From positions 1-25,013 of IMG/VR virus record IMGVR_UViG_3300044825_000844: a stretch of DNA of 25,013 bases; one strand, written 5' to 3'. The number at the start of each line of letters is the position of its first letter. Position 1 is the first letter of the stretch. This document shows, one piece after another, positions 7,841-25,013 of this stretch. The position numbers and the translations under genes were made by a program. The notes beneath the pieces were generated by a model. The model was not told where the DNA came from and searched no databases. It was given only the letters and a program-made list of their open reading frames with translations. Source of the DNA: a virus.

Positions 7841-7875
7841 CATCGAACTACCTCCCCCTCCGTGAAAGCGGGTTG

Positions 7876-7906
7876 AGCCCGGCCCATAACAGGGTCGGGC
7901 TTTTTT
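7876..7906 (+). terminator. Strong Rho-independent terminator after cement gene
   Basis: A 10-bp stem with one G-T pair, AGCCCGGCCC (7876-7885) with GGGTCGGGCT (7892-7901), closes the loop ATAACA. It runs into six T residues (7901-7906). It separates the capsid/cement unit from the tail genes. Confidence 0.93.
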
Positions 7907-7921
7907 CTTAGGTGATGTGAC

Positions 7922-23428: not shown

Positions 23429-23538
23429 AAGGCCCGGAGTAATTCTGGTGTAAAACCCTGCCGTTCTTCGCTATTCCCAGACGCGCTATGAACGCAGCCA
23501 TGCGGGTTTGCGGCGTGGTTGTTGATGCGCAGTTGCCT

Positions 23539-23990: not shown

Positions 23991-24290
23991 CTATTTCGCG
24001 TTCGGCGTCAATCTATGCGCTTCGATCAGCCGCGCCCATTCTTCGTCTTCGCGCCAGTTCTCCGGCATCACGGCCAACACGTCACGCTTCAACCGGCACA
24101 GTTCAATCCTGTACGCAGTGCCCTCGCACAGCCTCGCGCATGTGTCGCCTGTTCTCAGCATCGCGTTCTCGGAGCGCAGCCTGCGAACCTCGGCCGCCAG
24201 CGACATCAGCGCTTGCGCATCTCCGTTCGGTGGATGGCTCGGCACTGGCCCCCATGTGTCGGCCCACTTCAATGCCTGCTCAATTTCCAT
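23991..24290 (-). CDS. Coiled-coil phage protein, unknown function
   Basis: Encodes 99 aa, read leftward. AGGAAAG is five bases before ATG 24290, a good ribosome-binding site. A mid-protein coiled coil is visible (SLAAEVRRLRSENAML), then a basic and acidic helical region (RLKRDVLAVMPENWREDEEW) ending in RLIEAHRL. This is typical of early-region phage proteins that act as small partners. It lies between the methyltransferase and the small genes on the same strand, with the attC-like site in the gap upstream. Confidence 0.7.
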   Translation of the reverse strand: MEIEQALKWADTWGPVPSHPPNGDAQALMSLAAEVRRLRSENAMLRTGDTCARLCEGTAYRIELCRLKRDVLAVMPENWREDEEWARLIEAHRLTPNAK

Positions 24291-24318
24291 CGTGCTTTCC
24301 TTTCTGCGTAATCATGCC

Positions 24319-24390
24319 GCCGAACACAGCGGTCAAACCGCTTCGCTTGGACGTGCCGCAAGCGGCACGCCATTTACCTCGGCGTTAGGG
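24319..24390 (+). other. Integron attC-like folded recombination site, candidate
   Basis: This is a 72-bp imperfect palindrome with attC layout. R'' is GCCGAAC (24319-24325) and R' is GTTAGGG (24384-24390). Five-base spacers lie on each side. L'' is GGTCAAA (24331-24337) and pairs with L' TTTACC (24373-24378), leaving one bulged C, as the extrahelical base in known attC sites. The centre is a strong stem, CGTGCCGC/GCGGCACG (24352-24359, 24362-24369). Each R box deviates from the consensus at one base. It may also act as a hairpin terminator for the minus-strand methyltransferase. Confidence 0.5.
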
Positions 24391-24391
24391 C

Positions 24392-25013
24392 TCAAAACCC
24401 CATGCCCTGCTGTTCAGCCACCGGGGCGGCGTCTTCGTCCAGCAGGGAACCTTGCGCCTGCGCTTGCCGTATGCGCTCGCAGGCAATCTCAAAATACTTC
24501 GGCTCGCGTTCAATGCCCACGAACTGCCGGCCCTGCTGTACGGCAGCAACGCCAGTCGTTCCGCTGCCCATGAACGGGTCCAGCACCGTTTCGCCGCGCC
24601 TGGTGGTCAGTGCCACAAGCCAGCGCATCCAGCCCACCGGCTTGGGCACCGGGTGGCCGTTCTTCTCGGCAGTCTCGTTGCTGGCAATCACGGTCGGGTA
24701 CTGCGCGCCCTTGTGCAAGTCCGGGTAGGTGCCGTACAGCAGCACCGGCAGGAAGTTCTTAAACCCCCACTGGTGGCGTCCGGTTGCAGCAGAGCAGTAC
24801 ACGCCGCCCAGCGCGTCGAACTTCGGCAGTTCGTGAATGTGGGGTCCAATGAACACGGCTGCGCGTCCGGTCAGTTGCATGGCCTGCGTCAGCGCCGGCA
24901 CAACCTGCGTCACGTAGTTCTCGTAGGTGTCGGCGTAGCTCGCGTAGGCTTGCAGTTGCAGGCCATGCGCTCCGCCGCTGCCCTTTGTGCTGCCAAGGTC
25001 AACGCCGTAGGGT
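24392..25013 (-). CDS. DNA methyltransferase (N4/N6 type), 5-prime end cut by the window edge
   Basis: Read leftward, the frame is open from the right edge to TGA 24392 and encodes about 206 aa of a longer protein. The visible chain starts within a Pro-Tyr that is probably the catalytic (S/D)PPY motif IV, then runs GVDLGSTKGSGGAHG. Motif I follows as DPFMGSGTTGVAAVQ, the AdoMet-binding loop. Motif IV before motif I is the class-beta order. The substrate-facing middle has VFIGPHIHELPKFDALGG and GRHQWGFKNFLPVLLYGT. GTG 24913 is an internal codon, not a convincing start. It would methylate adenine or cytosine in DNA, perhaps protecting the phage genome from host restriction. Confidence 0.88.
   Translation of the reverse strand, partial: PYGVDLGSTKGSGGAHGLQLQAYASYADTYENYVTQVVPALTQAMQLTGRAAVFIGPHIHELPKFDALGGVYCSAATGRHQWGFKNFLPVLLYGTYPDLHKGAQYPTVIASNETAEKNGHPVPKPVGWMRWLVALTTRRGETVLDPFMGSGTTGVAAVQQGRQFVGIEREPKYFEIACERIRQAQAQGSLLDEDAAPVAEQQGMGF

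Follow-up and report, generated by a model that had tools for sequence, protein, structure and literature searches.

A probable attC site and gene cassettes of reversed orientation in a tailed phage

The segment 24319–24390 of the viral contig IMGVR_UViG_3300044825_000844 is very probably a genuine attC site that closes a mobile gene cassette at 24001–24384 in a tailed phage, with a DNA methyltransferase cassette coming next. The contig is a 25,013-base IMG/VR record, analysed over its whole length and referred to below as the window. By PHROG annotation it carries genes for a head-tail connector, a major head protein, a tail protein, a terminase and an endolysin; its source is a tailed phage, and the record is probably incomplete. 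Integrons are gene-capture platforms of bacteria in which a promoter located beside the integrase gene drives the cassettes; the integrase, IntI, binds attC in the form of its folded bottom strand and exchanges it at G^TT with attI, another attC or loose sites. The wider comparison, in which all contigs are metagenome assemblies, makes it likely, with some reservation, that phages possess a separate integron lineage with an integrase clade and a pool of flipped cassettes of their own, in which the cassettes and intI would form one co-directional unit served by phage promoters, the phage in the window carrying two such cassettes.

The elements of the site can be read directly from the (+) strand, which corresponds to the attC top strand. 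The R'' box GCCGAAC (24319–24325) has a single Y mismatch to RYYYAAC and is separated by the five-base spacer ACAGC from the L'' box GGTCAAA (24331–24337), which was also aligned to bacterial attC sites, whereas on the other side the L' box TTTACC (24373–24378) is followed by the five-base spacer TCGGC and the R' box GTTAGGG (24384–24390), the final base of which deviates from GTTRRRY. The R''/R' box test (RYYYAAC, GTTRRRY and a G^TT crossover) is met, with the crossover between G24384 and T24385 confirmed by the homology breakpoints. A first-pass annotation of the sequence had pointed out spacers of five bases and one bulged C at the TCAA position; both are present as described, the extra C at 24334 in L'' being the extrahelical base (a G on the bottom strand). 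The same annotation had seen a full attC arrangement, and all four boxes are indeed there, but R'' and R' pair poorly, since in an array it is the next cassette that contributes the last six bases of R'.

The central hairpin (24349–24371, +) consists of GGACGTGCCG-CAAG-CGGCACGCC, as a whole GGACGTGCCGCAAGCGGCACGCC, and matches bacterial attC sites letter for letter. The stable central stem proposed earlier is therefore present, but the folding prediction is less favourable for the remainder of the site: the L''/L' pairing rule is satisfied in the sequence (GGT[C]AAA/TTTACC), yet the pairing is energetically unfavoured, and the minimum-energy fold of the single-stranded DNA leaves the L boxes unpaired with a pair probability of about 0, as the hairpin GCGGTTTGACCGC competes with it. 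The corresponding probabilities are about 0.2–0.9 in two bacterial relatives. According to these predictions the central stem is real and the recombinogenic fold weak, and the attC of the window may itself be a weak one; there are no bench data on its recombination activity.

The appearance of the boxes is by itself a poor guide. It had been assumed that chance palindromes rarely reproduce both the spacer symmetry and the bulge, which was too optimistic, as the hand-made box-and-bulge score of the site (27.0) is equalled many times in 300 kb of shuffled sequence and is not significant; the R/L-box scanner was for that reason kept only for proposing sites. The covariance-model search that had been recommended as a check was run with models of our own, for which bacterial attC sites were the sole training data. 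The subtype model (R2) draws on 24 sites, taken from Thauera, Azospira, further genomes (mostly betaproteobacterial) and a single plasmid array, and the generic bacterial attC model (R1) has a shortened centre; the alignment A1, in which the L boxes were misplaced, was excluded from model building. The subtype model recovers the site at full length with 64.6 bits (E=1.3e-19) and gives no other match in the window. With the generic model the site is the top match in the window, although a borderline one at 15 bits (E=0.078; the runner-up has 7.5 bits), and it reaches 26.5 bits (E=1.2e-4) in a search of the whole record. No Rfam family matched the site. That the segment is a plain transcription terminator or a palindrome unrelated to integrons is hardly conceivable: a GC-rich hairpin between two genes and the ease with which shuffled sequence attains the hand-made score would fit such an explanation, but it is opposed by the subtype-model E-value against bacterial attC, the absence of a T run after the hairpin, the homology breakpoints at the crossover base and the presence of a complementary start box. 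As far as sequence comparison can establish it, 24319–24390 is a real attC site.

The complementary start box is GTTCGGC at 24000–24006 (+), with the G outside and TTCGGC inside the cassette and the crossover between 24000 and 24001. It is the exact reverse complement of the R'' box GCCGAAC (7/7), as expected of one excisable cassette, and the same test is met in the contigs G001 and G002 and by most phage cassettes. Together with the R' crossover it delimits a complete first cassette of 384 bp, 24001–24384, which consists of a flipped gene and the attC. The gene (23991–24290, −) lies on the strand opposite the attC top strand, its stop falls 9 bases past the cassette start, and it encodes a 99-aa protein of unknown function. 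Neither this protein nor the product of the antisense ORF 24015–24311 belongs to any Pfam or PHROG family, and no relatives of the 99-aa protein were found among the viral contigs or phage records searched; its gene start region has a homologue that adjoins an attC in L082/G003, at 73% DNA identity.

The second cassette (24385–25013) begins with the TTAGGG of the R' box and is cut by the end of the record, as is the 5′ end of its gene (24392–25012, −), which encodes an N6/N4 DNA methyltransferase (Pfam PF01555, E=1.8e-20; likewise a DNA methyltransferase in PHROG). In G001 this cassette is complete, with 807 bp and its own attC, whose R'', CCCTAAC, is exactly complementary to GTTAGGG. As the record stops within the second cassette, the window shows a single attC and falls short of a CALIN, which requires two or more attC sites and no intI; the arrays in G003 and G006 qualify. 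A complete integron, with intI and attI beside the array, is not present either, since the record lacks IntI, which is found in the relatives G009–G011.

How the cassettes were joined is indicated by contigs that share them. The methyltransferase cassette occurs in three, namely the window, G001 (99% protein identity) and G002 (94%), and in all of them it begins at the same base, 24384|24385 of the window, with 39–40 of 40 bases identical in the right flanks and only 8–16 of 40 in the left. The left partner is the attC 24319–24390 in the window, a different textbook attC (27300–27409) with a 91-aa gene in G002, and ordinary phage sequence in G001, where a plain G^AT target lies inside a phage gene. 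The G001 cassette is flanked by CTCCTCG and ATGTGC, and rejoining the flanks restores an open 62-aa frame with homologues in four phage contigs (L114–L117; 62–74% identical) that are uninterrupted there, so that in G001 the cassette has been inserted into a phage gene at a loose G^AT. The array in G003 has at least five attC sites, one of which matches that of the window over 59/59 bases, and the generic model finds ten attC sites and nine cassettes in G006, with the start an exact match to the cassette's own R'' in 8/9. The earlier inference that a cassette or cassette fragment had entered the phage by integron recombination is supported by the exact shared junctions, by the match of start box and R'', and by the occurrence of the attC subtype in IntI-encoding bacteria.

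A comparison with attC sites of chromosomal integrons, also advised at the outset, located the same subtype in mostly betaproteobacterial arrays. The hairpin sequence of the window site is identical in attC sites of Thauera, Azospira and relatives (L101–L112), and a near copy of the whole site is present in a Klebsiella plasmid cassette array; an exact-core scan of genome contigs with the phage version of the core gave no match, whereas the bacterial version of the hairpin did. IntI is encoded in 6/7 bacterial genomes carrying the subtype, which therefore belongs to real integrons, and the bacterial arrays hold their genes in canonical orientation. A betaproteobacterial, Rhodocyclales-like host range can be inferred from the subtype. 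The bacterial character of the subtype and the lack of IntI in the record would also be compatible with the phage having acquired a bacterial integron fragment through recombination, ordinary or illegitimate, without any integrase acting on phage DNA. Such an origin is nevertheless highly improbable, given that the junction is base-identical in three contigs with unrelated left flanks, that the G001 insertion at G^AT is clean in an otherwise conserved gene, and that gene orientation is the opposite in bacterial arrays. The plasmid array (L100, NZ_CP056487.1 28092–40137) comes from a wastewater Klebsiella and contains about ten unknown-gene cassettes of the attC subtype seen in the phage, with intI1 nearby. 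Another array of the Rhodocyclales subtype, L108 (JAFLCR010000043.1), lies in a MAG labelled Alphaproteobacteria in which IntI was not found, and represents either a transfer or a misbinned contig.

In the window both genes are on the (−) strand and the attC is on the (+) strand, so that the usual, though not absolute, requirement for the same direction is unmet. The neighbouring genes had already been said to run opposite to usual cassette orientation, which is correct, and the trait proves to be common in related phage integrons. It does not appear to lie in the attC polarity, since attC is on the strand opposite intI in 75/76 viral attC matches and in 33/33 bacterial ones. Orientation was scored by amino-acid composition, independently of base composition and with bacterial controls; a test by codon usage misread bacterial cassettes and was dropped. 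By this measure 48/56 cassettes are flipped in phages as compared with 9/59 in bacterial arrays, where 50/59 are canonical (Fisher p about 7e-15), and when only strong calls are considered 14/14 are flipped in phages and 17/17 canonical in bacteria (Fisher p about 4e-9). The p values are optimistic, as cassettes within an array are related and their independence is overstated. At the level of loci, the first cassette gene shares the strand of intI in 17/18 phage loci versus 3/18 bacterial ones.

Several of the small cassette genes have no known family, and their strand assignment rests on composition. A rival explanation, in which the cassettes are real and only appear flipped through the choice of ORFs, draws on the long antisense ORFs of high-GC DNA and on the failure of the first codon-usage test with bacterial cassettes. 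It is very unlikely, however, considering the complete separation of the strong calls in a composition-independent test and the restriction of PHROG and Pfam families to the flipped strand; these include DNA methyltransferases, PAPS reductases, a PHROG-322 protein and a Mom protein beside intI (G009), and none of the opposing ORFs tested matched a family. Moreover, the phage TJE1 from the published set scores as canonical in the same test, in agreement with its annotation. The reversed genes are, on this sequence evidence, a family trait of this phage group.

No IntI was detected by a profile search in the window record, nor in G001, G002, G003 and G006, all of which may be incomplete. Full-length integron integrases are encoded in G009, G010 and G011 (450–482 bits against a cut-off of 265), with 57–58% identity to IntI1 and no large gaps. 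The IntI-encoding phages also have structural proteins homologous to those of the window, in G010 a terminase (68%), a connector (49%), a tail protein (44%) and a head protein (38%); PF03237 was tried as a hallmark for these phages and performed poorly. A scan using the phage integrase yielded 53 viral loci with such an IntI, several of which adjoin tail, head-protease, endolysin or phage-integrase genes. When 83 integrases were placed in a tree, a single clade (support 100/94), separate from IntI1 and the betaproteobacterial IntI, united 32 phage sequences, and a few other integrases from viral contigs are placed among bacteria or on long branches. The suggestion that the site serves the phage in gene capture finds indirect support in relatives that encode IntI together with arrays, but the window record itself has no IntI. 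Two further loci were observed in this connection. L162 (IMGVR_UViG_3300048837_002364) is a viral contig with a T7-like connector, the IntI of which clusters with those of bacteria although its cassettes, too, mostly look flipped; it may offer a view of phage arrays arising from a bacterial intI. In L123 (G009) a Mom-family DNA modification gene (1231–1875, +; PF25680, E=1.1e-39) directly precedes the phage IntI, and its location next to methyltransferase cassettes possibly marks an anti-restriction island.

In the proposed model, an integron integrase would cut the folded bottom strand of attC at G^TT and recombine it with one of three partners: an attI, a second attC or a loose G-A/T-T target. 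Recombination of this kind would have joined the first cassette of the window to the methyltransferase cassette, and the same methyltransferase cassette to another attC in G002 and to G^AT in G001. The array belongs to a phage type with normal attC polarity relative to intI and flipped cassette genes that read towards and with it. Since the flipped genes are co-directional with intI, expression is inferred to occur most likely by read-through from an upstream phage promoter and not from the integron promoter Pc, and each cassette would have its own ribosome-binding site, as seen for instance in G002. The window lacks intI at the usual place of the family, between the lysis genes and the array; it may have been lost, or the integrase may have acted in trans from the host or a co-infecting phage. 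The cargo of DNA methyltransferases and Mom-type modification suggests an anti-restriction use. While the identity of the attC, the cassette bounds, the exact shared junctions, the flipped orientation and the phage-clade integrases of relatives can be read from sequence data, the acting integrase (phage-borne or host), the expression, the function and the recombination of the site are inferences without bench data.

The occurrence of attC sites and cassettes in phages, both virulent and temperate, has been reported before; their cargo includes methyltransferases, an integrase is often missing, and attC activity with IntI1 was shown (Qi et al. 2023, PMC9892861). Those phage CALINs and integrons resemble the present case in their attC sites, cassettes, methyltransferase cargo and often missing integrase, but belong to a different phage family, and in TJE1 the genes run the same way as attC; we found neither flipped cassettes nor a clade of phage integrases described in that study. 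The Rhodocyclales-type chromosomal integrons (Thauera and Azospira) share the attC subtype and the identical hairpin, but are located on bacterial chromosomes and have canonical cassette genes. The "atypical" integrons of Treponema, in which intI is turned towards attI (PMC3607928), likewise have co-directional intI and cassette genes; in Treponema, however, it is intI that is turned, whereas in the phages intI is normal by attC polarity and the cassette genes are turned. Finally, the G001 cassette at a loose G^AT outside any integron is reminiscent of attG insertion sites (Loot et al. 2024, doi 10.1038/s41564-023-01548-y, as far as can be judged from its citation in PMC12901181), although the G001 target is a phage gene and a natural case without an assay. 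The open-access literature contains no report that we could find of flipped-cassette phage integrons or of a phage integrase clade, subscription papers and preprints being outside the scope of the search, and the flipped-cassette phage integron is provisionally regarded as new. A phage lineage with reversed cassettes would imply that captured genes are expressed by a different route and that phages have a cassette pool of their own, not simply shared with bacterial arrays, and its methyltransferase and Mom-type cargo suggests that phages swap anti-restriction genes by this route. It also supplies cases, natural and exact to the base, of cassettes inserted into phage genes at loose G^AT sites, and makes testable both cassette formation and the reason why gene and attC polarity are linked.

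Some minor features were recorded in the same contigs. In G001 a second, degenerate attC-like site (23439–23497; 15.1 bits) is flanked by the interrupted 62-aa gene and the methylase gene that comes next, and a long inverted repeat at 37702–37839, with GTCCAAC/GTTGGAC ends and an alternating CG-rich centre, is attC-like by box score and was not reported by the attC model. In the window, RF02278 (Betaproteobacteria toxic small RNA) has a weak match at 7849–7908 (+; 29.4 bits, where the gathering score is 50); downstream of the head-protein region, this stretch resembles a terminator hairpin and its T run.
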